From assembly GCA_947169885.1 (NCBI GenBank), contig CAMVRM010000025.1, forward strand, positions 1 through 44,344: a stretch of DNA of 44,344 nucleotides, in the 5' to 3' direction. Below the pieces are notes generated by a model. That model was given only the letters and a program-made list of their open reading frames with translations. It was not told where the DNA came from and ran no database searches. A program made the position numbers and the translations under genes. This stretch comes from an uncultured Ruminococcus sp. (GTDB lineage: Bacteria > Bacillota > Clostridia > Oscillospirales > Ruminococcaceae). Below, in pieces: positions 4,435-42,358 of the stretch (position 1 is its first letter; every line of letters starts with the position of its first letter).

Positions 4435-5201
4435 ACACAACAGTCGGAAATATCTATGACCTTATTGACGGATTTGCGCCTTTTTCGGGTCAGCAGAGTT
4501 ATGACAACAGCGGTCTTTGTGTCGGGAGCCGTGACTGCGAAGTTACAAGAGTACTGACGGCACTCGACATCACCTGTGACGTTGTGCGTGAAGCGGAAAA
4601 GCTTGGCTGTGAACTTGTCATTTCGCACCACCCTGTTATTTTCCGTGGATTAAAGACCCTTGACCCGAAAGCTCCTGCGGTCATGCTTGCGGCAAGGGGC
4701 ATCTCGGCTATCTGCGCACACACAAGCTTCGACTCGGCAAGCGGCGGCATGAACGATCTTCTTGCGGAACGTCTGGGACTGAAAGTCATCGAACCGCTCG
4801 CTTTTGAGGAGGGCAAACCTATGGGTTATGTCTGCGAACTGCCTTTCGAGTGTTCCGAGGCGCACATGGCAAGCGTCTGCAAGAAAAAGCTCGGCTGTGA
4901 AGTTGTGCGCATGACAACTGTCGGCAAAAGCCTGAAACGTGTCGGCATATGTTCGGGCAGCGGCGCTTCACTCATTTCCGATGCGATAAACAAGGGCTGT
5001 GATGCGCTTATCACAGGCGACTGCAAGCATTCAGCATTTGTCGATGCGGTCAACCTTGGTTTCTGCCTTATAGATGCAGGGCATTTCCACACCGAAAACA
5101 TCTTCCACGAATTCATGGCGGCAAAACTTACCGAGAACTTCCCCTCCCTGACGGTCATGCAGTCTCAGGCTTTCAACGACCCTGTGACAGTCATTAAATA
5201 A
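4431..5201 (+). CDS. Nif3-like dinuclear metal centre protein (YqfO family)
   Basis: A full-length 256-residue Nif3/YqfO-family protein. The conserved metal ligands are visible: VISHHPVIF (H66, H67), AHTSFDSASGGMND (H97, D101) and the C-terminal AGHFHTENIFHE. Family members form toroidal hexamers with two metal ions per subunit; some have been annotated as GTP cyclohydrolase I type 2, but the physiological reaction is not settled. This copy lacks the ~110-residue insert domain of the longer Bacillus form. It overlaps trmK by ATGA and is followed by a strong terminator, so trmK-nif3 is a two-gene operon. Confidence 0.9.
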   Translation: MNTTVGNIYDLIDGFAPFSGQQSYDNSGLCVGSRDCEVTRVLTALDITCDVVREAEKLGCELVISHHPVIFRGLKTLDPKAPAVMLAARGISAICAHTSFDSASGGMNDLLAERLGLKVIEPLAFEEGKPMGYVCELPFECSEAHMASVCKKKLGCEVVRMTTVGKSLKRVGICSGSGASLISDAINKGCDALITGDCKHSAFVDAVNLGFCLIDAGHFHTENIFHEFMAAKLTENFPSLTVMQSQAFNDPVTVIK

Positions 5202-5205
5202 CTAT

Positions 5206-5252
5206 AAAGCCATAGCGCCGACTTGTTCGGAAAACGCTATGGCTTTTATTTT
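5206..5252 (+). terminator. Intrinsic terminator of the trmK operon
   Basis: AAAGCCATAGCG (5206-5217) and CGCTATGGCTTT (5235-5246) form a perfect 12-bp stem followed by TATTTTTT. It lies between convergent genes; the plus-strand T-run is the clearer one. Confidence 0.85.
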
Positions 5253-5253
5253 T

Positions 5254-6081
5254 TCAGACCGATTTCATCCAGCGGACACACTCTGCCGCCCATTTTTCTG
5301 CAACAGGAACAATGTGCCATTCGCCTGTTGCGGTAGCTTCATTGCACAGCGAAAGACCGTGACCGCCGTAGGGGTAGATGTGGCTCTCGAACGGTATCTT
5401 GTTTTTCGACAGTGCCGCCGTGTAAAGTATCGTATTCATAACAGGCACACAGCCGTCATCAGCGCAGTGCCATATGAACGTAGGCGGTGTCTGTTCGCCT
5501 ACACGCTTTTCCATTGAAACATATTCTCTCAGTTCGGGATCGGGTTTGTGCTGAATAAGGTTAGAGATAGTTCCCTCGTGCGTCAGTTCCGGATCGGACA
5601 CGATGACAGGATAGCAAAGCACCGAACCGTTGACTTTGAGCATCTCGCTCTCACAGCCGAGTGTCTCGGAAAGTACCTTGCTGTTCCAAAGATTTGCCAT
5701 TGAAGCCGCAAGATGTCCGCCTGCCGAAAAGCCCATAACGAATATCTTGTCAGGGTCGATGTCGAATTTCTCGGCGTTTGAGCGCACATAGCGTACAGCC
5801 TCGGCACATTCGAGAAGAGCTGTCGGGAATTTCTTGTCAACGCAGGAATATCTCAGCACAAAGCAGGCAAACCCCTCTCCCATGAACCTGAAAGCAACAG
5901 GCTCGGCTTCACGCTCTGAACACCAGTCATAACCGCCTCCGGGACAGATGATGAGTGCAGGTCTTTTCCTTTTGCCCATTTCCTCAAAATAAGTCGGCAG
6001 ATAACAGTCAAGACAGGGAGAAGTCTGTGGGTCATCAAGCCCTGCTTTTGCGTAGTTCAGTTTTATATCATAGCGTTCCAT
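5254..6081 (-). CDS. Alpha/beta hydrolase, esterase/lipase family (acetyl-esterase-like)
   Basis: A 275-residue serine esterase without a signal peptide, so probably cytoplasmic. Its oxyanion-hole motif is ICPGGGYDWCS (about 45-55), the nucleophile elbow is GFSAGG with Ser119, the acid is in HCADDGCVPV (D208/D209), and the base is in YGGHGLS (His241). The layout is that of the COG0657/BD-FAE-like esterases common in plant-polysaccharide degraders, which remove acetyl or feruloyl groups from oligosaccharides; the substrate here is inferred only. It lies 45 nt downstream of the VanY-like gene on the same strand and converges with the trmK operon. Confidence 0.85.
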   Translation of the reverse strand: MERYDIKLNYAKAGLDDPQTSPCLDCYLPTYFEEMGKRKRPALIICPGGGYDWCSEREAEPVAFRFMGEGFACFVLRYSCVDKKFPTALLECAEAVRYVRSNAEKFDIDPDKIFVMGFSAGGHLAASMANLWNSKVLSETLGCESEMLKVNGSVLCYPVIVSDPELTHEGTISNLIQHKPDPELREYVSMEKRVGEQTPPTFIWHCADDGCVPVMNTILYTAALSKNKIPFESHIYPYGGHGLSLCNEATATGEWHIVPVAEKWAAECVRWMKSV

Positions 6082-9251: not shown

Positions 9252-9272
9252 CTTATTTCTTATCTTTTATCT
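9252..9272 (-). repeat. Heptamer array overlapping the 3' end of the cysteine-synthase-like gene
   Basis: Three plus-strand units TTATTTC, TTATCTT and TTATCTA. On the coding (minus) strand they read TAGATAA AAGATAA GAAATAA and encode the last residues VDKR plus the stop codon (9260-9262). This is one member of the dispersed family described under findings. Confidence 0.6.
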
Positions 9273-10279
9273 ACTGTTCTTACGTTCAGCAGTTTCAGGT
9301 CCTTTGTCATGTAATTATCCTTGACCTCAAAATCACTGCAATAATCCGTTGACAAATATTTCTTATTATCGTCCGCAAATACCGTTACGATCGTCTTATC
9401 TCCGCCTATCCTGTTGCCTGCTTCAAGCACACCCAGGAAATTCGCACCGGATGAAATGCCGACACCTACCCCCAACTCTTTCGATAAACGCTGTGCCGCA
9501 ATTATCGAGTCAATATCGTCTACCGATATTACTCCGCTGCATTCATCAAGCTTCATGATCTCGGGGATAAATTCGTCCGAAATGCCCTGAATGCGGTGCG
9601 AACCCGTCTTGTAACCCGTTGAAAGCGTGGGCGAATTCAGCGGCTCTAACGGAAACAGCTTGCAGTCAGCATTGACCGTCCTAAGCCTGCGCCCGATACC
9701 CATTATCGTGCCGCCTGTCCCGACACCTGCAACGACCGCATCAGCCGTCAGCCCGAAAGCCCCCAGCTGTTCGATGATCTCCGCACCCGTTGTCTCAAAA
9801 TGCGCCGTGCAGTTGTCCTCGTTCGAGAACTGTCTCGGCAAAAACACGCTCGGGTCATTCTTCGCAAGTTCCTCGGTCATGGCGATCGAACCCAGAAAGC
9901 CGCCCTGCTCTCTCGAAACAGGCGTGATCTCTGCGCCGTAGCTTTTCATAAGATCAACTCGCTCAATGCTCATCCAGTCGGGCATAAAAATGCGCACCTT
10001 GTTCCCGAGATACGCTCCCACCGCCGAAAAAGCGATGCCCGTATTGCCGCTTGTCGCTTCGGCGATAACGCTGTTCTCGTTCACTTCGCCCGACTCGTAA
10101 GCACGCTTCATGATGTAAAATGCAACTCTGTCCTTGATGCTCCCCGACAGCTGAGGTGCTTCATACTTAGCGTAAACAGTGCGTTTTTCGCCCTTATATT
10201 CGCAGTCGACAGCGAGAAGAGGCGTTTTTCCGACAAGCCTTTCAAGTTCAGTAAATTTCTTTTTGATCTGTTCGTTCAT
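9260..10279 (-). CDS. PLP-dependent cysteine synthase family protein
   Basis: A fold-type II PLP enzyme of 339 residues. The PLP lysine is K49 in SGSIKDR, the substrate loop is ATSGNTGIAF and the phosphate-binding loop is GVGTGGTIMGIG. The family makes L-cysteine from O-acetylserine and sulfide, but relatives make cystathionine or other beta-substituted alanines, so the substrate is not certain. I place the start at 10279 (MNEQIKKKF) and not at the ATG at 10324: the promoter -10 element (10331-10336) lies immediately before 10324, so transcription would start at or inside that codon, and AGGA precedes 10279 by 11 nt. The C-terminal VDKR and stop codon are encoded by a heptamer repeat. Confidence 0.87.
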   Translation of the reverse strand: MNEQIKKKFTELERLVGKTPLLAVDCEYKGEKRTVYAKYEAPQLSGSIKDRVAFYIMKRAYESGEVNENSVIAEATSGNTGIAFSAVGAYLGNKVRIFMPDWMSIERVDLMKSYGAEITPVSREQGGFLGSIAMTEELAKNDPSVFLPRQFSNEDNCTAHFETTGAEIIEQLGAFGLTADAVVAGVGTGGTIMGIGRRLRTVNADCKLFPLEPLNSPTLSTGYKTGSHRIQGISDEFIPEIMKLDECSGVISVDDIDSIIAAQRLSKELGVGVGISSGANFLGVLEAGNRIGGDKTIVTVFADDNKKYLSTDYCSDFEVKDNYMTKDLKLLNVRTVDKR

Positions 10280-10330
10280 AAAATCTCTTATCCTTTTTTT
10301 AGAAGTAATAAATTCAGCAAACATATAGTT

Positions 10331-11535: not shown

Positions 11536-11642
11536 ATCATTCTCCTTGTGTTGTTTGTGTTCATTATTTTGCTTGTGTGCTTGATTTAATGTCCTTTGGA
11601 CATTTGTGCAGAACTAATGTGCGGTTTTACGTCAGTTCTTTC

Positions 11643-11691
11643 TTATCTCTTATTTCTAATTTCTTATTTCGTATCTCTTATCTGCTATTGA
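11643..11691 (-). repeat. Heptamer array between permease and ATPase genes
   Basis: About seven plus-strand units (TTATCTC, TTATTTC, TAATTTC, TTATTTC, GTATCTC, TTATCTG, CTATTGA). It is preceded by TTTTACGTCAGTTCTTTC, a leader shared almost exactly with the array at 15308-15321, and by a perfect AATGTCC-TTT-GGACATT hairpin at 11589-11605. It sits inside what should be one operon. Confidence 0.7.
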
Positions 11692-11712: not shown

Positions 11713-12573
11713 TTATAGTACGTCGGGTATCAGTTTTCTCAATTTCTTGTAAAAGTGACTGCCCAGGAAAATGAGGAATATCATCTCGCCGAATACTATC
11801 GCTGTTTCCAACATATTCTCTTTGTCAAATAACGGCAGATCGTATAAAAATGTTCTCCTGTATCCGTTGATGAAATAGTTTATCGGATTCAAATACAGCG
11901 ACTTGCGGATAATCGGATTCTTTACTTTCACTGTGTCCCAGACTATTCCCGATAACCAGAACAGTCCCGTCATGATAGAACTTACAAGGTTCTCAAAATC
12001 TTTGCTGAATGCCGCCATGGGCGCTGTTGTCCATGTCAGTATCCAGAAGAAAAGGAACATCATCGGACAGTAGAAAAAGAATTGCAGATTGTAAACGCTG
12101 GGCGCATAACCCTTGATGAGCAGCACAACATACATTATTGCGACCAGAACAAAATGTATCAGCAGTGACGCAATGTTCGTAAAGGTCATGATGTTCGACA
12201 TCGGGAAACTCAGCTTCGTGACGTATTGCTTGTTGTGACGTATCGAACGTGCGCCGCTCAGTATCGCATCGCTTATGTAGAACCACGGAACATATCCCGT
12301 CAGCATGAAGAAAAATCTCGGGAAACCGCTGACCGTTCCCGAACCTCTCAGCCCGACCGCAAAAGCAAACCACAGTATGAACAGAGTGAATGACGGCTTG
12401 ACGATCGCCCACGCAGGTCCTAAAAGTGCGCCTTTGTAAGTGCTTTTTAAATGGTTCACCGCAAGCCGCATTATCTTCTTGCTCTGACCCTTGTGCTCGT
12501 CGATTATCATTCCCACACCTGTGCTTTTGCCGCCTTTGGTAGTGTAAAAATATTCGCTTTTAGTATTAGCCAT
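11713..12573 (-). CDS. ABC-2 type polysaccharide/teichoic acid export permease (Wzm/TagG-like)
   Basis: A 286-residue ABC-2 permease with six hydrophobic segments between about 55 and 275. The family motifs are seen: LKSTYKGALLGPAWAIVKP near the N-terminus and KSLYLNPINYFINGYRRTFL before the last helices. It forms the membrane channel for the ATPase at 10534 and moves a lipid-linked polymer across the membrane. A 43-residue cytoplasmic N-terminus precedes the core. Translation is supported by GGGAG about 9 nt before the ATG, and only 11 bp separate it from the TagF-like gene upstream, so the three genes form one transcript. Confidence 0.92.
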   Translation of the reverse strand: MANTKSEYFYTTKGGKSTGVGMIIDEHKGQSKKIMRLAVNHLKSTYKGALLGPAWAIVKPSFTLFILWFAFAVGLRGSGTVSGFPRFFFMLTGYVPWFYISDAILSGARSIRHNKQYVTKLSFPMSNIMTFTNIASLLIHFVLVAIMYVVLLIKGYAPSVYNLQFFFYCPMMFLFFWILTWTTAPMAAFSKDFENLVSSIMTGLFWLSGIVWDTVKVKNPIIRKSLYLNPINYFINGYRRTFLYDLPLFDKENMLETAIVFGEMIFLIFLGSHFYKKLRKLIPDVL

Positions 12574-13765: not shown

Positions 13766-14094
13766 TGCAGAAGTTATCCCATTTTAAATCCCGCCCACAA
13801 AATAAAATGTGCAACTTCACCAACGTCCTCAGATCCTCGGGGTCCTCGGGCGGACGGCTGTCCTCGGGCGGACGGCTCTATGCCCTCGCACTGTCATTTT
13901 GTTTAGGACGGAAGATAGCGAAGCTCGGGGCTTTCAATAGGCGTGTAATATACTATTATAATATATTGTTATTGCTCTTTTGTTTTTCTGCAAAAAATCG
14001 GCATCACAGACTTTTTGCCCCTGCAATGCCGATATTCAAACCAAATTAAGCCGCCTGCACCGCCACAATATTATACGTGAGCGAAGTGAACAAC
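13766..14094. other. Non-coding spacer with local repeats
   Basis: I see no convincing gene here. It holds the 18-bp tandem repeat at 13842-13877, an inverted repeat ATCGGCAT (13997-14004) / ATGCCGAT (14026-14033) with a 21-nt loop, and the leader GAGCGAAGTGAACAAC directly before the heptamer array at 14095. The GC-rich repeat stands out against the AT-rich flanks. Confidence 0.5.
13842..13877. repeat. Perfect 18-bp tandem duplication
   Basis: GTCCTCGGGCGGACGGCT occurs at 13842-13859 and again at 13860-13877 without a mismatch. Two further CCTCGG partial copies lie just before (13835-13848). Confidence 0.85.
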
Positions 14095-14150
14095 TTATCT
14101 ATTATCTCTTATCTCTTATCTATTATCTATTATCTCTGATCTTTTATCTG
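14095..14150 (-). repeat. Heptamer array after the DAHP synthase gene
   Basis: Eight plus-strand units, mostly TTATCTA or TTATCTC, ending three bases before the stop codon of the minus-strand gene. The leader is GCGAAGTGAACAAC. Confidence 0.85.
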
Positions 14151-14152
14151 AT

Positions 14153-15187
14153 TTAGAGCAGGTCTGCGAGTTCGAGGACAAGTTTTTCAGACTTAGCCCA
14201 GCCGAGGCATGGGTCAGTGATAGACTTGCCGTAAACGCCTTCGCCGATCTTCTGAGCGCCGTCCTCGATGTAGCTCTCGATCATAAGACCCTTGACCATG
14301 CCTGCGATCTCGGAGGAGTGGCGGCAGCTGTGAAGGACTTCCTTTGCAATGCGTATCTGCTGTTCGTACTGCTTGCCCGAGTTTGCGTGGTTGCAGTCAA
14401 CGATAACTGCGGGGTTTTTAAGGTCGGAGTGTTTCTGATACATTTCGTAAACGGTGATAAGGTCTTCGTAGTGGTAGTTAGGCAGTGAGTGACCCTGTTT
14501 ATTGACGTAACCACGCAGGATAACGTGCGAGAGCGGATTGCCCTTTGTGTGGACTTCCCAACCGCGGTAAAGGAAAGTGTGGCTCGACTGTGCCGCCGTT
14601 ACCGAGTTGAACATAACGCTGTAATCGCCGCCTGTGGGGTTCTTCATGCCGACAGGGATAGAAAGACCGCTTGCAGTAAGTCTGTGCTGCTGATCCTCAA
14701 CAGAGCGAGCGCCGATAGCAACATAAGAAAGCAGATCGTTAAGGTAACGGTGATTCTCGGGGTAGAGCATTTCGTCAGCGCAAGTCAAGCCTGTTTCCTT
14801 GACGGCTCTGTGGTGCATTTCTCTGATAGCGATAAGACCTGCGAGCATATCCTCCTGTTTTTCAGGGTCGGGCTGATGGACCATGCCCTTATAGCCTGCG
14901 CCTGTTGTACGGGGCTTATTAGTGTAGATACGGGGGATAATGATGATCTTATCCTTAACTTTTTCCTGCAAACCTGCAAGGCGGTTAGTGTAATCGAGTA
15001 CTGCGTCCTCACGGTCAGCGGAGCAAGGTCCGATGATGAGCAGCAGCTTGTCCGACTTGCCCTCGAACACGTCTGCTATCTCCTTGTCACGGCGTTCCTT
15101 GATAGCCTTGATGTCGTCCGAGAGAGGGAACTGTTCCTTGATCTCTTTCGGGATAGGCAGTTTTCTAATGAATTCCATGTTGTTCAT
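14153..15187 (-). CDS. aroF: 3-deoxy-7-phosphoheptulonate (DAHP) synthase, class I
   Basis: A full-length (344 residues) class I DAHP synthase of the AroF/G/H type, the first step of the shikimate pathway: phosphoenolpyruvate plus erythrose 4-phosphate. The motifs LLIIGPCSADRED, PRIYTNKPRTTGAGYKG, ASGLSIPVGMKNPTGGD, HVILRGYVNKQG and IVDCNHANSGKQ are in the family order and carry the PEP- and metal-binding residues. Which aromatic amino acid feeds back on it cannot be told. The gene stands alone; AAGGA lies 11 nt before the ATG and a heptamer array follows the stop. The symbol follows the family; aroG or aroH would be equally possible. Confidence 0.93.
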   Translation of the reverse strand: MNNMEFIRKLPIPKEIKEQFPLSDDIKAIKERRDKEIADVFEGKSDKLLLIIGPCSADREDAVLDYTNRLAGLQEKVKDKIIIIPRIYTNKPRTTGAGYKGMVHQPDPEKQEDMLAGLIAIREMHHRAVKETGLTCADEMLYPENHRYLNDLLSYVAIGARSVEDQQHRLTASGLSIPVGMKNPTGGDYSVMFNSVTAAQSSHTFLYRGWEVHTKGNPLSHVILRGYVNKQGHSLPNYHYEDLITVYEMYQKHSDLKNPAVIVDCNHANSGKQYEQQIRIAKEVLHSCRHSSEIAGMVKGLMIESYIEDGAQKIGEGVYGKSITDPCLGWAKSEKLVLELADLL

Positions 15188-15307: not shown

Positions 15308-15321
15308 TTATTTCTTATTTA
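15308..15321 (-). repeat. Short heptamer array after the GH26-like gene
   Basis: TTATTTC TTATTTA, four bases from the stop codon at 15325-15327. It is preceded by AAACCTTTTGGTTT, a small hairpin, and TTTACGTCAGTCTTTC, shared with the array at 11643. Confidence 0.65.
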
Positions 15322-15324
15322 AAA

Positions 15325-16782
15325 TTAAACCTCGACCGGCTCGAATCTTATGCGGATATTCGGGAGCTTCTCTATCGTTGCATAGCTGTTGAACATTCCG
15401 TCCTCAGCCGTCAGATCGTTCTCACCCGTTGCAGGCGGTGCAAATATCCTCAGTGTCAACTCCGCTTCACCCTCTAAGGGCTTCTCGAAAAACGCACTCA
15501 TAAGGTCTATCGTTCTCGCTTTCGGCGACTTATAGAACCACTTGCCGTTTATCTCCATCATAAGGTTGCTGTCATCATCAAAGGTCACTTCACAGAAATG
15601 AGGGTTCTTCTCAAAGTGAAGCGGTATCTCAATACCCTCTGCGTCCTGCGAACCGCCCCAGCGAAGCTTTGCAGGGAACGCAAGCTCCTCGCCCCTCGTC
15701 ATTTCGGGCTTGAAGTAGTCATCGTGGATGATTTTTTTGTATACGCCCATGAGCGGCTGTTCTATTCCGCAGTCGGAATAGTTCGGGTCTTCGATCTCAA
15801 GACCCAGCCTGCCCCTGTCACGGAACTGATACATCGAAAATGCGTTGAACCAGCCCTGCTCGGGGTCTGCTTTCAGCATATCGCAGTATTCTTTCACCAT
15901 GTCAGCCTGCTCATAAGGTCCTGTAACATCGCCGTCAGCGTTGAACTCGCTCATGACCATGGGTTTCTTCACGCCGCCGTTTATCTCAGTCAGACGCTTG
16001 CAGGTGCGCTTTGTCCACTCGTAAACGTTCTTGATGTTGTCACGGGCGTGAGTTGTCTCGGAGGGGGTGTTGCCGCCCTGATTGCGCTCTGCAACATCGT
16101 AAGGCCAGCCCCAGTGTAAAGCGAAATACTTGTCAACGCTCCAAATGTCGGTGTCCTTGAACGCCTGCTCAAACTCTTTTTCCATTTCGATCTCGCCCTT
16201 TGAGTCGTCGATACCGCCTGCGCAGAGTATCGTTGAAACGTTCGGAGCGTATTCTTTCAGTATCTTGTTGAAACGGCAGTAGAAATCAGCGATCTCCTGA
16301 TAAGTAGCACGCTTTGTGAAGCTGAACCAGTTGCCGGTTGCTTCGTGGTTTATCCTGAGCTGCATACGTCCGAAAGTTTTCAGATCGTTTGCGATAGCGA
16401 TAAGGTGTTCGTCCGAAACGTTCGGGTCAATGGTAAGCGTAAGGATAACTTCCTGACCGTGGCGGCGTACATCACGCATATAGTTGAAAGGCTCGCCCTC
16501 GGTATTGCCGTTCAGACCGCCTTTATAGGTGAAGTAATCATCATAAGGATAATCCCACGCAAAAGAAACGTCCATATCCTTGCAGGCTTCGGAAATTCTC
16601 TGAGGGAACTCCTTGTCCAGCGGATAGTAGCAGTACATAAGGCTTATTCCTCTGTGGGGTCTGCCAAGCTTGTGCAGGATATAGTCCTGATTGACGTATT
16701 CTCCTCTTTCCGAGCCGTCGCCCAGATCAACGGCACACTTCGCTTCGCCCATGTGGACAGCATATGCTTTCAGTTCGTTCAT
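15325..16782 (-). CDS. Cytoplasmic clan GH-A-like glycoside hydrolase (GH26-like)
   Basis: 485 residues with no signal peptide. The pattern LRINHEATGNWFSF (H146, E147) looks like the GH26 acid/base motif H-E-x-x-G-x-W, and VMSEFNADG (E279) fits the nucleophile on strand 7, so I read it as a clan GH-A TIM barrel related to GH26. Residues about 360-485 form an extra C-terminal beta-rich region (WGGSQDAEGIEIPLHF onward) that may be a beta-sandwich. It could act on imported manno- or other hemicellulose oligosaccharides, which would pair it functionally with the surface mannanase at 2311. The start is supported by GGAGG seven bases upstream. The exact family cannot be fixed by eye. Confidence 0.7.
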   Translation of the reverse strand: MNELKAYAVHMGEAKCAVDLGDGSERGEYVNQDYILHKLGRPHRGISLMYCYYPLDKEFPQRISEACKDMDVSFAWDYPYDDYFTYKGGLNGNTEGEPFNYMRDVRRHGQEVILTLTIDPNVSDEHLIAIANDLKTFGRMQLRINHEATGNWFSFTKRATYQEIADFYCRFNKILKEYAPNVSTILCAGGIDDSKGEIEMEKEFEQAFKDTDIWSVDKYFALHWGWPYDVAERNQGGNTPSETTHARDNIKNVYEWTKRTCKRLTEINGGVKKPMVMSEFNADGDVTGPYEQADMVKEYCDMLKADPEQGWFNAFSMYQFRDRGRLGLEIEDPNYSDCGIEQPLMGVYKKIIHDDYFKPEMTRGEELAFPAKLRWGGSQDAEGIEIPLHFEKNPHFCEVTFDDDSNLMMEINGKWFYKSPKARTIDLMSAFFEKPLEGEAELTLRIFAPPATGENDLTAEDGMFNSYATIEKLPNIRIRFEPVEV

Positions 16783-16818
16783 GTTAATACCTCCGTGTTA
16801 TTTATATTATCTATTATT

Positions 16819-17124
16819 TTACTTTTCTATTGACAGCGGCACATCGCAGTAAGGGCAGCAGTCAGGGCTGTTGTGCATGAGTTTCACCGATGCTCCGCAG
16901 TTGCCGCATATGACCGTGCGTTCCTTAAAGTCCTGCGGCGGTTCTTTCTTGATATAAGTGTGAAAGACTTTTTTCTCATAGTCATAGTTGATATTTTCGA
17001 GAAAGCCCTTTTTTTGCAGTTTAGGGAGCAAAACAGACGGCTCTTTCAGCCTCAGTTCCCTTTCAACTGTCTCAGCAGAAATATCTGTTTTATTATATGT
17101 ATAGAAGAATTCTGCGATAGTCAT
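16819..17124 (-). CDS. Small zinc-ribbon protein with winged-helix-like N-terminus
   Basis: About 101 residues. The C-terminus has four cysteines in a zinc-ribbon arrangement, CGNCGAS and CCPYCD. The N-terminal part (MTIAEFFYTYNKTDISAETVERELRLKE, residues 1-28) is helical and resembles a small DNA-binding or adaptor domain, but I do not recognise a named family. A longer reading frame opens at a TTG (17187), overlapping the upstream gene. I chose the ATG at 17124 because GGAG lies exactly 7 nt before it and no Shine-Dalgarno precedes the TTG. Its stop (16819-16821) sits at the end of two heptamer units (16807-16820). Confidence 0.7.
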   Translation of the reverse strand: MTIAEFFYTYNKTDISAETVERELRLKEPSVLLPKLQKKGFLENINYDYEKKVFHTYIKKEPPQDFKERTVICGNCGASVKLMHNSPDCCPYCDVPLSIEK

Positions 17125-17167
17125 AGCTTTACTCCGTCTGAGCATACGTATGACCGTAACTTTTATA

Positions 17168-18253
17168 TCAGCCCTGATCCGCCGCAAGCTGTTCGTTCAC
17201 AATGTCGAACTGTTTTGCAAGCTTGCGGAATATCTTGTCACAAGTATCCGTTTCGGGAACTTGCTCCGTCATGATTATCAGAATGAACGGCGAATCAGCA
17301 TAGCATATCGCACAGTCATGATAACATTCCTGCTCAATATCCGAACCATACTTGTGCGAAACAGGATACTTGTCTTTCAGTTCGGCGGTTATCTGCGTTT
17401 CAAGGTCTGTCTTCCGCATAAGCTTCGTCAGCCATTCACCACGCTTAGTGTCCTGCGCATAAAAGAAAATGTCCTCATATTCTTTCAGCAGGTCGGCGGC
17501 GGTGCATTCGTTGAAGTAGTAGTCATACCCAAGATAATAATTCGCCCCAAGTTCCGCATTCATCTCATTGAAACCCTCAAAACCGTATTTCTTCACAAGG
17601 TTCATGTATGCGGAATTGTCCGACTCGGTTATCGCAAGCCTGATAAGTTCCCTTGCCGTGAACTTGCTCCCATAGCCTGCGTCCGAAACGGTGTCGATAT
17701 ACGGATACCATAACTCGGTTATCTTCACTTTTTCGTCAAGGTCGATACCGCTTTCCAGCAGATACTTGCAGAACGGCGCTTTGATAGTTGAACAGCAGCC
17801 GTAATACCTGCCGTTATTGTAGGAACACTGTGCGCCCGTTTCAAGGTTCTCATACTCAAAACTCAGGTCATAACCGAACGAATCGCACAGCTTATCTATC
17901 TCCTCAAATGCTTTTTTAAGCTTCTTGTTTGAATAGACCTTTTTCGGGAAATCCGATGTTGAAAACCTGTGACCCGAAAGTATATCTTTTTTTATCGCAG
18001 TCGGTTCTTTCAGTGCTTGCGTTTCGACAGCAGTTGTTTCGACAGCAGGTCTTGCAGTGGTTGTCATTGTTGTAACAGCGGAAGTCACAACATTGGTTTC
18101 AGCGGTCTGTTCAGCAGGAACAGCCTCAGCCGTCACAGAAGCCGTTACAGCCTCTTTTGTCTCGTCAGCCTCAGCCGCCTGTACCGATGCTCCGCAGCCT
18201 GTGAGCAGAACTGCCGTTGTGAGCAGTGCCGCCGCTTTCATATTTTTATACAT
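17168..18253 (-). CDS. Lipoprotein with class A beta-lactamase-like serine hydrolase domain
   Basis: A lipoprotein signal with lipobox LLTGC (Cys20) is followed by a Thr/Ala/Val-rich linker (about 25-85) and a serine beta-lactamase-fold domain (about 105-355). The catalytic motifs are S155-T-I-K158 (SxxK) and S211-D-N213 (SxN). The third motif, usually KTG, reads K301-Y-G303. No clear Glu166 motif was found, so this is more likely a D,D-peptidase-like or peptidoglycan-sensing surface protein than an antibiotic-resistance enzyme. The start at 18253 has AAGG about 9-11 nt upstream. A second beta-lactamase-fold protein at 23272 keeps an intact KTG. Confidence 0.8.
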   Translation of the reverse strand: MYKNMKAAALLTTAVLLTGCGASVQAAEADETKEAVTASVTAEAVPAEQTAETNVVTSAVTTMTTTARPAVETTAVETQALKEPTAIKKDILSGHRFSTSDFPKKVYSNKKLKKAFEEIDKLCDSFGYDLSFEYENLETGAQCSYNNGRYYGCCSTIKAPFCKYLLESGIDLDEKVKITELWYPYIDTVSDAGYGSKFTARELIRLAITESDNSAYMNLVKKYGFEGFNEMNAELGANYYLGYDYYFNECTAADLLKEYEDIFFYAQDTKRGEWLTKLMRKTDLETQITAELKDKYPVSHKYGSDIEQECYHDCAICYADSPFILIIMTEQVPETDTCDKIFRKLAKQFDIVNEQLAADQG

Positions 18254-18637: not shown

Positions 18638-18732
18638 TTAACTATATTCAGGCAAAATGTCTGACTGAAATGCACTTCTAAAAGAATTTTGCACAACAGT
18701 TCACGATTTTTTTGAAAGGTAAAGGTGTTCAT

Positions 18733-20160
18733 ATGATAAACAGAAAACTCAAAAGAACAGCGGCACTTCTTGCGGCAGTACTCTCCGTCAGTGCGGCAGT
18801 CGGCTGCGGAAACAGCGGCAGTTCGTCCGAAGATGATGTTTCGCAGGTCGAGACAGTCTCGGTCAACGATACTGACGAGATAGACTCTATACCCGAGGGC
18901 GCAGCGACTGAGATACGCTGGATGGGTACATATGACCTCAATCCCTCAAAGGGTCAGGACAAAACTGTTGAAATGACGCTTTTCAACAACAAGGGCGGTA
19001 CAGTCGTGTGGGATCAGGTCATTGACAGTCAGAAGTTCGACAAGCTTGCGGCAGCTATCATGTCCAAACAGAACGTCCCCGATATTTTCAAGTATGAATG
19101 GCTCGCTTTCCCCTGTCAGGTGGTCAAGGATATGTATCAGCCCGTTGACGACATCGTGAACTTTGACGATGCGCTCTGGACTGACACGAAAGAAACTGCC
19201 GATCAGTTTGAAATGGCAGGCAAGCACTACGTTGCGCCTATCTCTTTCGAGCCGACAACTTTCATGATGTATGACTATGACCTTATCCAGAGCGAGGGAC
19301 TTGACGATCCTTACGAGCTGTACATAAACGGCGAGTGGAACTGGGATAACTGGGTAGACCTTATCAACACTTTCTGCTCGAATGCGTCGGGCGATGATGA
19401 ACGCTACGGCATAAACGGCTGGTTCAACACCCAGATAATCCAGCAGACGGGCAAGACCATGATAAACTACGACAAGGCAAACAACCAGTTCGTTTCAAAC
19501 CTCAACGATCCCGACATCGAGCGTGCCGAGAATATGCTCTATGAGCTGGGAAAGAACGGCTATATCTTCGACACATGGACAGGAAGTGCGAGCAACACCC
19601 TCAAAGGCGGAAACGTTCTGTTTTACAGTATGGGAACATGGGCGATGACAGGAAACGCAGGACCTAAGGACGGCGATGACTGGCGCATAGTTCCGATGCC
19701 CTCCGACCCGAACACCGATGAGAAGTATATGTCCTCAGCTATGACCGCTTATATGTGGGTCAAGGGCAGTGACAAGAGCGATGCCGTCAAAACATGGTTC
19801 GAGTGCTGCCGTATCGCTGCGACCAGCGATGAATACAAGGAAAACGGCAAGGAGAAATTCCTCAACGCCAACCCCCACTGGACAGAAGATATGTATCAGG
19901 TCATCGTTGACGCTTCTTCCACCGAATACAAGCAGGTGTTCGACTACGGCTACGGCATCTCGGGCACGCTTTCGGACGACAACTCCAACGAGGACGGCAG
20001 CTGCGTAACAAGAAAACTCTATGAGTTCACCAACAAGACTGACGATGCAGGTCATCGCTACACATGGAGCGAACTGCGAGAGAGCTGGGGCTCGACTGTC
20101 GAGAGCGAACTCAAAGACATAAACGCCGCGATCTCTGCTTATATTTCCGCTAACAGCTGA
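18733..20160 (+). CDS. Family-1 extracellular sugar-binding lipoprotein
   Basis: 475 residues. A lipoprotein signal (LKRTAALLAAVLSVSAAVGC) is followed by a Ser/Asp-rich spacer and a periplasmic-binding-like fold typical of family-1 solute-binding proteins: IRWMGTYDLNPS, VPDIFKYEWLAFPC, GEWNWDNWVDLINTF and FYSMGTWAMTG. The tryptophans and the NWDNW motif are usual for oligosaccharide-binding members. No permease or ATPase gene is adjacent, so partners are elsewhere. The start at 18733 is preferred to the in-frame TTG at 18712 because the A/G-rich AAAGGTAAAGGTG lies between them. A perfect consensus promoter and a strong terminator make it a high-expression single-gene unit. Confidence 0.9.
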   Translation: MINRKLKRTAALLAAVLSVSAAVGCGNSGSSSEDDVSQVETVSVNDTDEIDSIPEGAATEIRWMGTYDLNPSKGQDKTVEMTLFNNKGGTVVWDQVIDSQKFDKLAAAIMSKQNVPDIFKYEWLAFPCQVVKDMYQPVDDIVNFDDALWTDTKETADQFEMAGKHYVAPISFEPTTFMMYDYDLIQSEGLDDPYELYINGEWNWDNWVDLINTFCSNASGDDERYGINGWFNTQIIQQTGKTMINYDKANNQFVSNLNDPDIERAENMLYELGKNGYIFDTWTGSASNTLKGGNVLFYSMGTWAMTGNAGPKDGDDWRIVPMPSDPNTDEKYMSSAMTAYMWVKGSDKSDAVKTWFECCRIAATSDEYKENGKEKFLNANPHWTEDMYQVIVDASSTEYKQVFDYGYGISGTLSDDNSNEDGSCVTRKLYEFTNKTDDAGHRYTWSELRESWGSTVESELKDINAAISAYISANS

Positions 20161-20207: not shown

Positions 20208-20242
20208 CAGATAACAGATAAAAGATAAGAAATAAGAAATAA
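20208..20242 (+). repeat. Heptamer array directly after a terminator
   Basis: Five units in gene orientation: CAGATAA, CAGATAA, AAGATAA, GAAATAA, GAAATAA. It begins one base after the terminator T-run, and its far side reads GGCGCACA in reverse complement, identical to the leader of the array at 20895. Confidence 0.85.
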
Positions 20243-20257
20243 TGTGCGCCCCTACAT

Positions 20258-20346
20258 GGCGTATAAAAATACGCTGTCATAAGAATCATACGCTTGACCT
20301 ATACGCCAAAAACCACGTATTTACGCCACTTATACGCCTATACGCC
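20258..20346. repeat. TATACGCC octamer repeats
   Basis: Copies of TATACGCC or its complement GGCGTATA occur at 20258-20265 (inverse), 20300-20307, 20331-20338 and 20339-20346, with variants near 20287 and 20320. The last two are a perfect head-to-tail tandem. GGCGTATAAAAATACGC at 20258-20274 recurs at 20781-20797. Confidence 0.8.
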
Positions 20347-20434
20347 GTTTTTGACGGTCAGTGTATATTATGAATGATAGCTGAACGTCATCAGGCACGT
20401 CCACAAGTTCTTTTACCATATTGAATATCGACAT
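20330..20434 (-). CDS. Possible 34-residue small protein or gene remnant
   Basis: An ATG (20432-20434) preceded by AGAGAGG seven bases upstream opens a 34-codon frame, MSIFNMVKELVDVPDDVQLS followed by FIIYTDRQKRRIGV. The Shine-Dalgarno is as good as those of the certain genes around it. The last five residues and the stop are encoded by the TATACGCC tandem repeat, as if the repeat had truncated a longer gene. A TATGAT at 20459-20464 could be a -10, but the -35 is poor. I do not recognise the peptide. It may be a remnant rather than a working gene. Confidence 0.4.
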   Translation of the reverse strand: MSIFNMVKELVDVPDDVQLSFIIYTDRQKRRIGV

Positions 20435-20676
20435 ATTATCGCCTCTCTTTCAAGTAATATCATACTCAAAAAAGTAAAAAGTAAATAGATAATTTGCGTG
20501 AATTTTAAATATATAAATATTCATACTTTCAGCCGTTTTATATCAGAAATAGTAATTTGACCTATTTGAAGTTAATATTGATATGTTTTGAGCCGATAAA
20601 GCCGAAAAAAGCCGCATATATATGAAAATGCCCCTTTGTCCAAATAACAGACGGTTTAAAATATTTATATAAATTC
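20435..20676. other. AT-rich non-coding spacer
   Basis: AT-rich, with AAAGTAAAAAGTAAATAG-type runs and several GCCGAAAAAAGCCG-like segments near 20600-20615. I see no gene. Confidence 0.4.
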
Positions 20677-20767
20677 TTATCTCTTATTTATTATCTCTTA
20701 TCTCTTATCTCTCATCTCTTATCTCTTATTTATTGTCTCTTATCTGTTATTTATTATCTAATATCTG
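20677..20767. repeat. Longest heptamer array (13 units)
   Basis: Thirteen consecutive 7-bp units on the plus strand, in order TTATCTC, TTATTTA, TTATCTC x3, TCATCTC, TTATCTC, TTATTTA, TTGTCTC, TTATCTG, TTATTTA, TTATCTA, ATATCTG. The period is strictly seven for the whole 91 bp; the changes are substitutions, not indels. Confidence 0.92.
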
Positions 20768-20772
20768 TTTAC

Positions 20773-20799
20773 GGCGTATAGGCGTATAAAAATACGCCT
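20773..20799. repeat. Second octamer block with palindrome
   Basis: GGCGTATA at 20773-20780 and 20781-20788 in tandem; the second copy starts the palindrome AGGCGTATAAAAATACGCCT. It is in inverse orientation to the block at 20331-20346, so the two blocks face each other across the 20.35-20.77 kb spacer. Confidence 0.8.
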
Positions 20800-20845
20800 G
20801 TACAGAACTTTATCTTTATTTAGACCCTTGAACGAAGCGAACACA

Positions 20846-20929
20846 TTATCTCTTATTTATTATTTCTTATTTTAAATAACGCCGAAGGCGCACATTATTT
20901 CTTATTTCTTATCTCTTATTTCTTATTTA
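20846..20929. repeat. Two heptamer arrays with related leaders
   Basis: Units at 20846-20873 (four) and 20895-20929 (five). Their leaders are GAACGAAGCGAACACA and AACGCCGAAGGCGCACA, the second with a GCC-GAA-GGC mini-hairpin. The second array ends 10 bp before the promoter of the next gene. Confidence 0.88.
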
Positions 20930-20938
20930 TTTTATCGC

Positions 20939-20967
20939 TTGCAAAATCCGTTCAGATGTGGTATAAT
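20939..20967 (+). promoter_or_regulatory. Promoter of the wall-binding-repeat operon
   Basis: TTGCAA (20939-20944), a 17-nt spacer and TATAAT (20962-20967). The transcript would start near 20974, about 30 nt before the start codon. Confidence 0.75.
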
Positions 20968-21003
20968 ATATAGTGTACACCTTTTTTGTTTTTTTCGAGG
21001 TTG

Positions 21004-23226
21004 ATGAAATTTATGGCTATAAACAAAAATCTTACTGCTTTTACTTTGCGTTCTCACGGCTCGCTGCTTACTGCGGCACTCACTTCCGCAGCCTGCACTG
21101 TTGCTGTCGGCGCAGGGTTTATGTATTACTTCGATTACAGCCTTAACCGCTCACCCGGCTGGCATACTAACGAGGAAGGCACTTACTATATCATACGCAC
21201 CACTCATGAACGTGCGAAAGGTCTGAAACTTATCAATAACGCTTCTTACCTGTTCGATGAGGACGGCATAGTTCTGAAAGGCTGGCAGACTTTTGACGGC
21301 AATACCTATTATTTCGACCAAATGGGCGTTATGCAAAAGGGTATCATCAAGATAGACGGCGAGGAATATTACTTCTCGGACGAGTCGGGCATCTTCAAGA
21401 CGGGTCTGCATGACTTCAACGGCAAGGAATACTGCTTCAACGATCACGGCTTTCCCGACACGGGTTTCCAGAATGACGGCAAGTATTATTACAGCCCCAC
21501 AGGTGAACGTATCCTCGGACTTGCCGAAATAAACGGCTACTGGTACTATTTCTATGAGTCGGGAGAAAAAGAGGGTCAGCGTGCTTCGGGCTTCACCGAG
21601 ATAGACGGCAACACCTATTATTTCGCCGATGACGGTCACATGGTAACAGGCAAGACGGTCATAAACGGCGAACTTTATGATTTTCAGTCGAACGGCATAA
21701 TGTTCACAGGCTGGACTAAGGACGATTCGGGCAAGTTCTTTATGCACGCCGACGAAAAAACAGGCGTGTTCGCTCAGGGCTTCGTCACGATCGACGGCAA
21801 AGATTATTACTTCGATCAGGATCACCATATGGTCAAAGGCTGGCAGATGATAGCAGGCGACAACTATCATTTTGACGATGTGGGCGTTATGACAGTCGGC
21901 TGGTTCACGGACAACGGCAACAAATATTACTTCAATGCTGACGGCAAGGCGGCTAAGGGCTTTATCAAAGAGGGGTATGATTACTACTACTTCGGCGACA
22001 GCAACAAGCTTTGCTACGGCTGGTACAAGTTCGGCGGTCAGTTATATTACTTCGGCACTGACGGCAAGGTATGGCAGGGCTTTTATGAAGAGGACGGCGA
22101 TGTTTACTACTTCGACCAGAAAACGCATCAGGCTGCCGAGGGTCTGACACACACGCTCCCATATAACGATCAGCTGAGGGCTGACATCAAGCAGTTCCGC
22201 AGTGACTACAAGCTTATGCAGAAAGCACAATCGGCTGAGACTGACAAGAAGATAAAGCTGACAGAAGATGAAAAGAACCGCCTGCGTGAACTGGAACACA
22301 CCTATCTGAGCGACAGTTCCTACGAGGCGAATGTCATAACAGCTTATAACAAACTGGGCGATTCGCTGTTCTATCAGCACTTTTTCGGAAGTGACCACAT
22401 AATAAGAGTCGGCTGGCAGAAGATCTCGGGCTTCAAGTTCTACTTTGACCCTGTGACGGGCGAAAAAATGACAGGCTGGCAGACGATAAACGGCAAGAAA
22501 TATTATCTCGGACAGTTCGGGCTGTGCGTTTCGGGAAAATGCACAGTTGACGGTCAGGAATACGAATTCAACAAGGACGGTTCACTTCCTGCGGGCATAA
22601 CCAAAACCGATGACGGCGTGCGCTGTGCTGAGGGAAACGGCTGGGTAGCTAACGATTTCCGCACCGAAAAGAACAAGACTTATTACTTTGACGAAAACGG
22701 CTATGCTGTGACGGGCTGGCGTGAGATCGGCGGCTCGATGTACTGCTTCAATTCAAGCGGCGTTTTGCAGACAGGCATTCAGAAAGACGGAAGTGCGATC
22801 TACTACATCACCACAAACGGCTCTGTCAAGAACAAATGGGTCAGCACAGACAGCGACACGACTTATTACTTCGGTTCGGACGGCATCGCAGTTGCAGGCT
22901 GGACGGAGATAGAGGGCATACTCTATTACTTCGGTTCGGACGCAAAGCTTAAAAACGGCTGGACAACAATTGACGGAAAGACCTATTACCTTGAAAAAGG
23001 CGCACAGCTTCGTGGACCGTTCACTCTCGGCGGCGTGAAGTACATCATCGGAGATGCAGGCTATGCCAAAGAGGGCTGGACAACATGGAACACTCAGAGA
23101 TATTACACAACAGCGTCAGGTATTGCATTCACAGACACAGTTCTGGAAATAGATGGCGTTACCTATAACTTCGACTCAAACGGAGTTGCAACAGTCGTCA
23201 GCGAAACGCCCGAAACAGAAGAATAA
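21004..23226 (+). CDS. Surface protein made of cell-wall/glucan-binding (CW_binding) repeats
   Basis: About 740 residues. A membrane segment (SLLTAALTSAACTVAVGAGF) follows a short N-terminus; the rest is roughly thirty ~20-residue repeats of the choline/glucan-binding type (consensus G-W-x-x-x-x-G-x-x-Y-Y-F-x-x-x-G). The run is interrupted once by a charged helical stretch (near residues 380-460, PYNDQLRADIKQFRSDYK onward) that looks like a coiled coil. I see no catalytic domain. Such repeats bind wall choline or alpha-glucans in other species; the ligand here is unknown. The start is uncertain among TTG 20986, ATG 21004 and ATG 21013: GAGG at 20997-21000 is rather close to 21004 and rather far from 21013. 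It is the first gene of an operon with 23272 and 24210. Confidence 0.9.
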   Translation: MKFMAINKNLTAFTLRSHGSLLTAALTSAACTVAVGAGFMYYFDYSLNRSPGWHTNEEGTYYIIRTTHERAKGLKLINNASYLFDEDGIVLKGWQTFDGNTYYFDQMGVMQKGIIKIDGEEYYFSDESGIFKTGLHDFNGKEYCFNDHGFPDTGFQNDGKYYYSPTGERILGLAEINGYWYYFYESGEKEGQRASGFTEIDGNTYYFADDGHMVTGKTVINGELYDFQSNGIMFTGWTKDDSGKFFMHADEKTGVFAQGFVTIDGKDYYFDQDHHMVKGWQMIAGDNYHFDDVGVMTVGWFTDNGNKYYFNADGKAAKGFIKEGYDYYYFGDSNKLCYGWYKFGGQLYYFGTDGKVWQGFYEEDGDVYYFDQKTHQAAEGLTHTLPYNDQLRADIKQFRSDYKLMQKAQSAETDKKIKLTEDEKNRLRELEHTYLSDSSYEANVITAYNKLGDSLFYQHFFGSDHIIRVGWQKISGFKFYFDPVTGEKMTGWQTINGKKYYLGQFGLCVSGKCTVDGQEYEFNKDGSLPAGITKTDDGVRCAEGNGWVANDFRTEKNKTYYFDENGYAVTGWREIGGSMYCFNSSGVLQTGIQKDGSAIYYITTNGSVKNKWVSTDSDTTYYFGSDGIAVAGWTEIEGILYYFGSDAKLKNGWTTIDGKTYYLEKGAQLRGPFTLGGVKYIIGDAGYAKEGWTTWNTQRYYTTASGIAFTDTVLEIDGVTYNFDSNGVATVVSETPETEE

Positions 23227-41286: not shown

Positions 41287-41371
41287 TACTCAGCTCTCAT
41301 ATTTGACCCTTTTGTAAAAAGTGTTCACAAACCAATTTAAGATCAGTCCGCTTCAGCGGACACCTTCTTTC

Positions 41372-41399
41372 TTATTTCTTATCTCTTATTTCTTATTTC
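41372..41399 (-). repeat. Heptamer array providing the stop codon of the dehydrogenase gene
   Basis: Four units TTATTTC, TTATCTC, TTATTTC, TTATTTC. The stop codon at 41393-41395 is inside the last unit. The leader is a perfect hairpin CCGCTTCAGCGG (41348-41359) followed by ACACC. Confidence 0.9.
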
Positions 41400-42358
41400 A
41401 TTTTGCTTTGCACTTCGTTCTGAGGTGTGCCGTTTAGCCACGCTTCAAGGTTTGCCGCAACAACTTTCAGCAGGCGCTCCCTTGTCTCGATAGGTGCCCA
41501 TGCGATATGCGGAGTTATTATGCAGTTTTTCGCCTTGTACAGCGGACAGTCAGCCCTCATCGGCTCGTTCGCAAGAACGTCTATGCCTGCTCCTGCGATG
41601 ACTCCGCTGTTGAGCGCATCTGCAAGTGCCTGTTCGTCCACTAGTCCACCCCTTGCCGTGTTGATAAGAAGCGCAGTCGGCTTCATGAGCGACAGCGTTT
41701 CGGCATTTATCATGCGTTCGTTGTCCTTTGCGAGCGGACAGTGGAGCGTCACAATGTCAGAACGCCGCATCAGTTCTTCAAGCGTGACGATCTCAGTTCC
41801 GTCAGTGACCTTTGCCGCCGTTCTTGTGTGCGTGATAACATTCATACCGAAAGCCCTTGCAATTGCGGCAACTCTTTGTCCTATGTCGCCGTAACCCACG
41901 ATACCGAGGGTCTTGCCCAGCAGTTCCGCAGTCGGCATATAAAAATAGGAAAACAGCTTATAGTTTATCCACTCGCCGTCATTTACCGACTTTGCATACT
42001 CAGCAGTTCGGCTGTAATGTTCGAGGATAAGTGCAAAAGTATGCTGTGCGACCGAATATGTCGAGTAGGACGGCACATTGCAGACAGACGCTCCCCTTTT
42101 TGCGGCGGCTTCAATATCCACGTTGTTATAGCCTGTTGCAAAAAGCCCGACATAGCGCAGGTTCGGACAGCGCTCAAAAACTTCCTCAGTGATAAGGCAC
42201 TTGTTGCAGATGACCGCATCAGCATCGCCTATCTCGTCAGCCACCCTGTCATTCGGCACATAGCCCAGAACTTTCGTGTCGCCGAGAACGGTTATGCCGT
42301 CAAGCGAAACATCGCCCTTAGTGACCGTTTCCGCATCTAATATAACTATTTTCGCCAT
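41393..42358 (-). CDS. NAD-dependent D-2-hydroxyacid dehydrogenase (glycerate/hydroxypyruvate type)
   Basis: 321 residues with the complete D-2-hydroxyacid dehydrogenase pattern: substrate loop LFATGYNNVD, NAD-binding GYGDIG (155-160), Arg236 in NTARGG, Glu265 in ANEP and the catalytic His284 in TPHIAW. Substrate could be hydroxypyruvate/glycerate or another 2-oxoacid; family members cannot be told apart by eye. GAGGA precedes the ATG, and the gene follows the 136-residue membrane protein gene by 3 nt. Its last residue and stop lie in the heptamer array. Confidence 0.9.
   Translation of the reverse strand: MAKIVILDAETVTKGDVSLDGITVLGDTKVLGYVPNDRVADEIGDADAVICNKCLITEEVFERCPNLRYVGLFATGYNNVDIEAAAKRGASVCNVPSYSTYSVAQHTFALILEHYSRTAEYAKSVNDGEWINYKLFSYFYMPTAELLGKTLGIVGYGDIGQRVAAIARAFGMNVITHTRTAAKVTDGTEIVTLEELMRRSDIVTLHCPLAKDNERMINAETLSLMKPTALLINTARGGLVDEQALADALNSGVIAGAGIDVLANEPMRADCPLYKAKNCIITPHIAWAPIETRERLLKVVAANLEAWLNGTPQNEVQSKMK

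Follow-up and report, generated by a model that had tools for sequence, protein, structure and literature searches.

The window, a stretch of 44,344 bp that forms positions 1-44344 of contig C25 in the source genome (G000; an assembly of 3.105 Mb in 98 contigs), contains scattered tandem arrays of a 7-bp unit close to gene ends, and the question that it raises is what these arrays are and why they lie where they do. The unit is TTATYTM, which reads GARATAA on the opposite strand. Heptamer units are present at all the places listed in the initial annotation, three of which are weak (864-883, 9253-9273 and 16807-16820), and eight of the arrays lie at, over or after the stop codons of genes (those ending at 869, 9260, 11713, 14153, 15325, 16819, 20160 and 41393) with GARATAA on the coding strand, as it had claimed. 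Among the clear minus-strand arrays, one of seven units (11636-11684) lies 28 bp past the stop codon of gene 11713-12573 (−) and has CTGACGT as its inner flank, one of eight units (14095-14150) lies 2 bp past the stop codon of the DAHP synthase gene 14153-15187 (−), one of two units (15308-15321) lies 3 bp past that of gene 15325-16782 (−), and one of five units (41365-41399) includes the stop codon of gene 41393-42358 (−) and is flanked on its inner side by a GGTGTCCGC hairpin. The weak ones are also on the minus strand. At 9253-9273, three units, one of which departs from the consensus, cover the stop codon of gene 9260-10324 (−), and at 16807-16821, two units, again with one off-consensus, cover that of a weak ORF, 16819-17187 (−); both sets are below the seed of our array caller (two perfect 7-bp units). 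At 864-883, a degenerate run that is not strictly tandem lies at the stop codon of gene 869-1942 (−). On the plus strand, the array at 20208-20242 (CAGATAACAGATAAAAGATAAGAAATAAGAAATAA) has its outer tip toward gene 18712-20160, whose stop codon is 47 bp away; the farthest two of the eight arrays are thus 28 and 47 bp from the stop codon. Within the window alone, the stop and strand pattern is weak evidence, since all but one of the eight genes run on the minus strand. Ten window proteins that we scanned have miscellaneous functions.

Across the whole source genome, an exact three-unit GARATAA search gave 364 matches, counted at overlapping places and hence representing fewer arrays, and the reversed-pattern control gave 0. 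Further analysis covered a sample of 1.518 Mb of the 3.105 Mb, with the window included; the sample takes in contigs C24, C40 and C54, which were picked for carrying the 720-bp family described below and hold 20 of the 116 arrays, and its genes are ORF calls by a simple hexamer model, not an annotation. The unit caller found these 116 arrays in 82 intergenic groups. When all periods from 4 to 12 were scanned in the same sample, period 7 gave 112 intergenic and 0 coding arrays, all other periods summed gave 4 intergenic arrays, and periods 4, 5, 8 and 10 gave none in intergenic DNA. The arrays are unevenly spread, with contigs C3 (118 kb), C14 and C16 standing against C4 (107 kb): C3 carries 0 arrays and C4 20. 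Over 19 contigs the simulated p for this unevenness is ~0.0002 by arrays and 0.002 by groups. We rejected the idea that a second species had contaminated the assembly, since 15 measured contigs, array-rich and array-free, have a similar G+C content (0.456-0.487); the contamination listed for the assembly is 0.18%. Blastn searches with the simple-repeat filter on gave no sign of a phage origin (window 20600-21000, 0 matches in 50,697 phage records) or of a plasmid origin (20243-20676, 0 matches in 72,556 plasmid records). Another dispersed module, GAGCCGTCCGCCCGAGGAC, occurs at window positions 13842-13877 and in other intergenic places, with 31 copies in the 1.518-Mb sample, 10 of them within 400 bp of an array.

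For the orientation of the arrays, the tip was defined as the 5' end of the GARATAA strand, and the 99 arrays flanked by a called gene to either side were compared with 500 random placements in intergenic DNA on a random strand. The tip points toward the nearer gene in 95 of the 99 arrays, where random placement gave 49.2 ± 4.8 with a maximum of 63. Forty arrays overlap the stop codon of the faced gene or come to within 10 bp of it (random placement, 6.8 ± 2.5, maximum 17). Within 30 bp of a stop codon, 43 of the 99 carry GARATAA on the coding strand (10.3 by random placement) and none is in the opposite orientation (10.4 by random placement), and with 43 sense against 0 antisense arrays the orientation and stop-codon bias holds genome-wide when scored against random intergenic placement. 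Gene starts are faced by 40 of the 99 arrays, 22 in tandem and 18 in divergent regions, and none of 50 start-facing arrays is within 10 bp of the start. Neighbouring arrays that share one intergenic region form 34 pairs, of which 14 are arranged as '><', 10 as '>>', 10 as '<<' and none as '<>'. An opposite-facing partner precedes the next gene for 47 of the 99 arrays, against 2% in shuffled sequence, and a same-facing one for 18, against 0.3%; the other 52 have no recognisable opposite-facing partner, which counts against the cassette interpretation given below. Since splitting a direct array leaves same-facing halves whereas the '><' pairs are inverted, the idea that the arrays are targets split by other insertions was dropped. 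The GARATAA strand thus runs away from the nearest gene, and the earlier strand rule is the 3'-end half of this wider rule.

The arrays at 20.68-20.93 kb had been set apart as exceptions, upstream of a plus-strand gene. They are real, but they do not break the rule: they make up the right arm of a foldback-like intergenic element of 722 bp (20208-20929), in which the left array points right and three arrays point left. The left-arm array (20208-20242, +) has the inner flank TGTGCGCCCCTACATG (20243-20258, +), which contains half of a palindrome also found at a RAYT-like gene. The right arm consists, from the inside, of an array of 12 units as called (20677-20760, −; its end had previously been placed at 20767), whose unit order is common to copies elsewhere, a 4-unit array (20846-20873, −) and an outermost 5-unit array (20895-20929, −), which has its tip toward the start of the plus-strand gene at 20986/21004. 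Both outer arrays run inward into TGTGCGCC, and when 20208-20929 was folded as RNA, the end arrays were paired and the z-score was −8.73 (20 shuffles). A gene for a choline-binding-repeat protein (20986-23226) adjoins the element.

By sequence comparison, the element is assigned to a dispersed family of ~720 bp. Its interior has 28 matches in its own genome, and a search of 40 relatives gave 2 partial matches in one congener and none in the others. The 12-unit array of the family is of equal length in five of eight copies, with the unit order largely shared. One of the eight lacks 8 units, exactly 56 bp, and the gaps in two others, 37 and 2 bp long, do not correspond to whole units. Several contigs of the assembly end within the family. 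A short ORF remnant at window positions ~20331-20434 (−), which begins MSIFNM.KELVDVP as read by eye and has a ribosome-site-like sequence, recurs in other copies and, judging from its sequence, resembles the truncated beginning of a gene from a mobile element. Another foldback, a short one with opposite-facing arrays ~47 bp apart around a GTCCGC hairpin, occurs at another locus (L250, 270-386).

The flanks of the arrays differ between the two sides. Inner flanks have at least two copies in 67% of 113 cases and outer flanks in 27% of 116, and in the comparison array by array (n = 113) repetitiveness is higher on the inner side in 53, higher on the outer side in 21 and equal in 39. The innermost unit is GAAAGAA in 13 of the 14 arrays that abut CTGACGT, and past this junction the cassettes diverge into further small modules. 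Such fixed junctions between array and inner flank argue that the arrays are copied with the inner flank and not grown separately at each stop codon, by a copying process that we infer from the sequences. Fourteen two-ended examples range in length from 69 to 935 bp, and inspection by eye found no consistent target-site duplication around them.

We give an even chance to the interpretation that the arrays are the gene-facing ends of copied mosaic intergenic cassettes that have undergone a species-level expansion. Each array would then be the outer end of a small cassette, with the GARATAA strand reading from the gene-side tip inward, and where both ends are kept, the two arrays would be inverted repeats and the element could fold back. 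The cassettes would be copied around the genome as an array plus a fixed inner flank and would land between genes, where they very often come to lie on or next to a stop codon. As the tip gives TAA in every frame within 21 bp, entry from the 3' side would cost a gene few end residues; the supply of stop codons may be what makes landing harmless rather than why the arrays exist. Array length would change after landing, as the loss of eight units from one of the eight copies of the 720-bp family suggests. The polarity, the landing at stop codons, the inverted pairs, the recurrent inner flanks and fixed junctions, the shared length and unit order in the 720-bp family and the fold of the window element speak in favour of this interpretation; the arrays whose outer flank is the more repetitive, and the varied lengths and lack of a consistent target-site duplication among the two-ended examples, speak against it.

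The distribution among relatives bears on how recent such a spread would be. Exact three-unit matches number one or two in three of 60 relatives (12 of the same genus) and 0 in the other 57. With one mismatch allowed, there are 925 matches in the source genome, and 24 of 196 other genomes of the family match, mostly 1-3 times; the largest other counts, 26 and 17, are from two genomes whose reversed controls are larger (59 and 45), and one further genome (G129) has 10 matches with a control of 0. These counts point to expansion in one species. The closest of the 12 congeners by DAHP synthase is G001 (94%), with a median amino acid identity of 88.9% across 124 reciprocal best protein pairs. In 410 kb of this congener, the period scan turned up no period-7 array and the unit caller a single short one, and this near-absence counts for a recent spread. 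At the stop codon of its orthologue of one array-flanked gene (C40_7), there is a degenerate heptamer-like run followed by a hairpin, and the place of this array may be older than the split of the two genomes. No true empty site could be aligned between them, a further point against the cassettes. For seven genes with an array near the stop codon, the congener sequence examined contains an orthologue, and in four of the seven pairs the array overlaps the stop codon; these proteins align to within a few residues of the end and have new end residues. They are not mid-gene truncations, and the alignments fit landing at the very end of the gene.

Similar arrays occur outside the family. A five-unit pattern run over genome contigs matched at least 109 stretches, and among 80 examined many are simple one-unit arrays. 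Among 22 loci viewed in detail, some in Bacteroidota, Clostridia, Treponema and Riflebacteria have the array on or closely behind a stop codon, in coding-strand orientation; at other loci it lies a long way from any stop codon or faces a start. At one locus (L188, Clostridia RGIG3848, 5043-5333), two arrays are in the reverse '<>' order, against the outward-facing rule. All 20 genomes reached from such loci have three-unit matches to a wider pattern, up to 139 with a control of 0 (G232); the controls exceed the counts in two of the genomes (G241 and G248) and are near them in two others (G236 and G246). In 340 kb sampled from four of the 20, scanning for periods gave 8, 6, 6 and 13 intergenic period-7 arrays, the last with 3 more called coding, and at most 2 intergenic arrays of any other period, except for period 9 in G232 (RUG12225, Bacteroidales; loci L298-L302), which has 11 intergenic 9-bp arrays in 100 kb against 6 heptamers. 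The polarity in the four genomes was assessed with 33 arrays outside genes, several of which share one intergenic region, after three within ORF calls were dropped. The purine-rich strand follows the stop codon of a gene in 31 of 32 arrays, although 8 of the 31 lie between convergent genes, where either strand gives that result, and the tandem cases come from ~15 regions as read from the table. This 3'-end bias is stricter than insertion alone predicts and counts against the cassette interpretation. The tip is at the nearer gene in 22 of 30 arrays, a weaker preference than in the source genome, and several units of these genomes, such as AGTTAAG, have stop codons on both strands.

Among heptamers known from bacteria, those of cyanobacteria include the named STRR units. 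The matches listed in a search of the open full-text literature, outside which most subscription papers lie, include none to the GARATAA family. Rehm et al. (2015, PMC4692102) describe heptameric repeats, GGGAATC and GGGGA(C/T)T, in Xanthomonas and Nostoc and mention Calothrix heptanucleotides second-hand. According to the accessible text of that paper, the Xanthomonas GGGAATC repeats lie almost exclusively nearer the 5' neighbouring ORF, with the sense strand past stop codons and the antisense strand ahead of starts; convergent pairs number 70 and 75 in two Xanthomonas species, G-quadruplexes form in vitro, and the authors leave the function open, their Discussion proposing polymerase-footprint slippage for the intergenic heptamer excess with no established cause (PMC4692102). 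The source genome resembles this description in having a 7-bp unit in many copies that are intergenic (112 against 0 coding; mostly intergenic in GGGAATC), in the position nearer the 5' neighbouring gene on the reference strand (95 of 99) and in the convergent inverted pairs (14 '><' and 0 '<>' of 34), and a general lack of association with insertion sequences, as that text reports for GGGAATC, is common ground. The two differ in that GGGAATC is G-rich, forms quadruplexes and contains no stop codon, whereas GARATAA has one TAA per unit and, by direct reading of the unit lists, no GG run and hence no G-quadruplex potential; and 83% of the Xcc repeats are present also in Xac (PMC4692102), whereas the congeners of the source genome are almost array-free.

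The TAACTGA direct repeats of marine Beggiatoaceae, cyanobacteria and Bacteroidetes (MacGregor 2015, PMC4679880) likewise form 7-bp arrays, with 169 sets in one genome, give stop codons in all three frames in one direction, overlap some upstream gene ends and have a lineage-specific spread. As far as the accessible part of that paper goes, they differ in being forward and mostly a few nucleotides ahead of start codons, with one inverted repeat mentioned (PMC4679880); GARATAA is another unit, and 0 of its 50 start-facing arrays lie within 10 bp of the start. The available descriptions of two further cases are of dispersed heptamer arrays within one species, the (GATAGRA)n satellites of Chloroflexus aurantiacus, whose unit composition resembles GARATAA (PMC6749651), and of heptanucleotide elements in Geobacter metallireducens, one class of which consists of paired arrays across a strand switch (PMC2700814); these descriptions do not give placement or orientation with respect to genes. 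The GARATAA arrays are most likely a further variant of these poorly understood gene-flanking heptamer repeats.

The initial annotation had proposed a translation-stop buffer or an mRNA 3'-end element. Part of this stands: direct reading confirmed TAA in all three frames of the GARATAA strand, the stop-codon bias is real, and the array's own codon is the stop of the gene in 25 arrays, at an offset within the array of 3 bp in 7 cases, 7 bp in 11, 14 bp in 5 and 21 bp in 2, by which all three frames are used. The 40 of 99 arrays that overlap a stop codon or lie no more than 10 bp from one, the sense-oriented arrays just past stop codons in other phyla and the degenerate run at one orthologous stop codon of the closest congener all favour arrays being kept by selection for all-frame stops or for shaping the mRNA 3' end. 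We nevertheless consider such a selected role decidedly unlikely. Another 40 of the 99 point toward a gene start, and for the 18 of these that stand between divergent genes there is no stop codon to buffer; period 7 alone is abundant, though periods 4, 5, 8 and 10, which are not multiples of 3 either, would cover all frames as well; GGGAATC has the same geometry in the published description and no stop codon (accessible text of PMC4692102); and the congeners do without arrays. The DNA beyond the arrays is not terminator-like either. In the 60 nt after stop-proximal arrays, hairpins with z < −2 occur in 20% of 44 cases, against 28% of 150 controls at other genes, and T-runs in 18% against 43%, so that an intrinsic terminator or other 3'-end element built as a hairpin and then a T-run is not supported. 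The supply of stop codons is real, but a stop buffer is probably not the purpose of the arrays; more likely it is a property that lets them be tolerated than a function.

It is unlikely, if less easily dismissed, that the arrays are microsatellites that grew in place from the TAA of a stop codon through polymerase slippage favouring 7-bp units. Slippage would account for the dominance of period 7 here and its prominence in four other genomes with different units, for the exact loss of 8 units from one copy of the 720-bp family and for the heptamers reported, in the sources available to us, from unrelated lineages; the fixed junctions of array and inner flank and the shared unit order at unrelated loci, however, suggest that arrays were copied from one locus to another, divergent regions offer no stop codon as a starting point for growth, and of the three gaps in the 720-bp family two do not amount to whole units. 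The degenerate run at the C40_7 orthologue, the gaps of 37 and 2 bp and the reversed pair at L188 weigh somewhat against the cassette interpretation and against the single class of foldback elements suggested below, and slightly in favour of slippage and the stop buffer. Binding sites for a regulator or an mRNA-level protein, as proposed for the TAACTGA repeats of Beggiatoaceae, would also place heptamer arrays near genes, but we find this highly improbable, as TAACTGA mostly ends within several nucleotides of the start in the published excerpts (PMC4679880) and 0 of 50 start-facing arrays here are within 10 bp of it, and the 10 window proteins scanned have miscellaneous functions.

If cassettes were copied, the enzyme that moved them might be sought among the transposases of the genome. 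Its only Y1 transposase match (contig C33, 12005-12319; L250, 1390-1989) is RAYT-like, with the REP-associated tyrosine transposase as best match at 62.4 bits (cut-off 80). By eye, the gene sits among genes resembling an indolepyruvate oxidoreductase cluster. An inverted pair of TGTAGGGGCGCACATTGTGCGTCCGT-type GTAG-tagged palindromes is found at this gene, one copy inside the ORF, and half of the palindrome abuts arrays of the 722-bp type; both observations favour the arrays being REP/RAYT products whose cassettes were moved by this transposase acting with the palindromes. Among 32 other genomes, however, a Y1 match occurs in 9 of the 20 with arrays and in 6 of the 12 congeners poor in them, so that Y1 genes do not follow the arrays, and most cassettes have other inner flanks. 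The RAYT was therefore set aside as the engine, and we regard this origin as very unlikely. Compared with the REP/REPIN-RAYT system as far as its source describes it (PMC3733652), the source genome shares the GTAG-tagged palindromes and a RAYT-like gene, but the GARATAA arrays are not palindromic and do not track Y1 genes. An IS630-type MITE with TA duplication was suggested by the TA tips and rejected, as there is no consistent duplication and no match of the DDE_3 profile above the cut-off in the source genome. MITEs and foldback elements in general are non-coding, dispersed and intergenic and have inverted ends. The cassettes are likewise non-coding, dispersed and intergenic, 47 of the 99 arrays have the opposite-facing partner that inverted ends require and 52 do not, and the window element folds back, but the cassettes have no fixed length or consistent target duplication, and many are one-ended. 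Among the families searched (DDE_3 and Y1), no transposase could be linked to the arrays.

For single units, functions have been read from the unit itself, with quadruplex effects for GGGAATC (PMC4692102) and regulator binding for TAACTGA (PMC4679880) in the portions of these papers available to us. GARATAA, which forms no quadruplex, shares its polarity and pairing with GGGAATC, which has no stop codon, and from this comparison the cause of heptamer arrays probably lies in how they are made and spread, not in the sequence of the unit. With more doubt than confidence, we suggest that GARATAA, GGGAATC and the mixed heptamer units seen in Bacteroidota, Clostridia and other groups could be convergent versions of one undescribed class of foldback elements, with ends of 7-bp arrays that face the nearest gene as a rule, with unit sequence, stop codons and quadruplexes incidental, and with a common process that makes and spreads the arrays. 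What is gained is a testable rule, that the tip points toward the nearest gene, and, in a many-copy genome with array-poor congeners, a setting for finding the engine. In practical terms, the arrays set stop codons, change the last few residues of proteins and are found where the assembly breaks.
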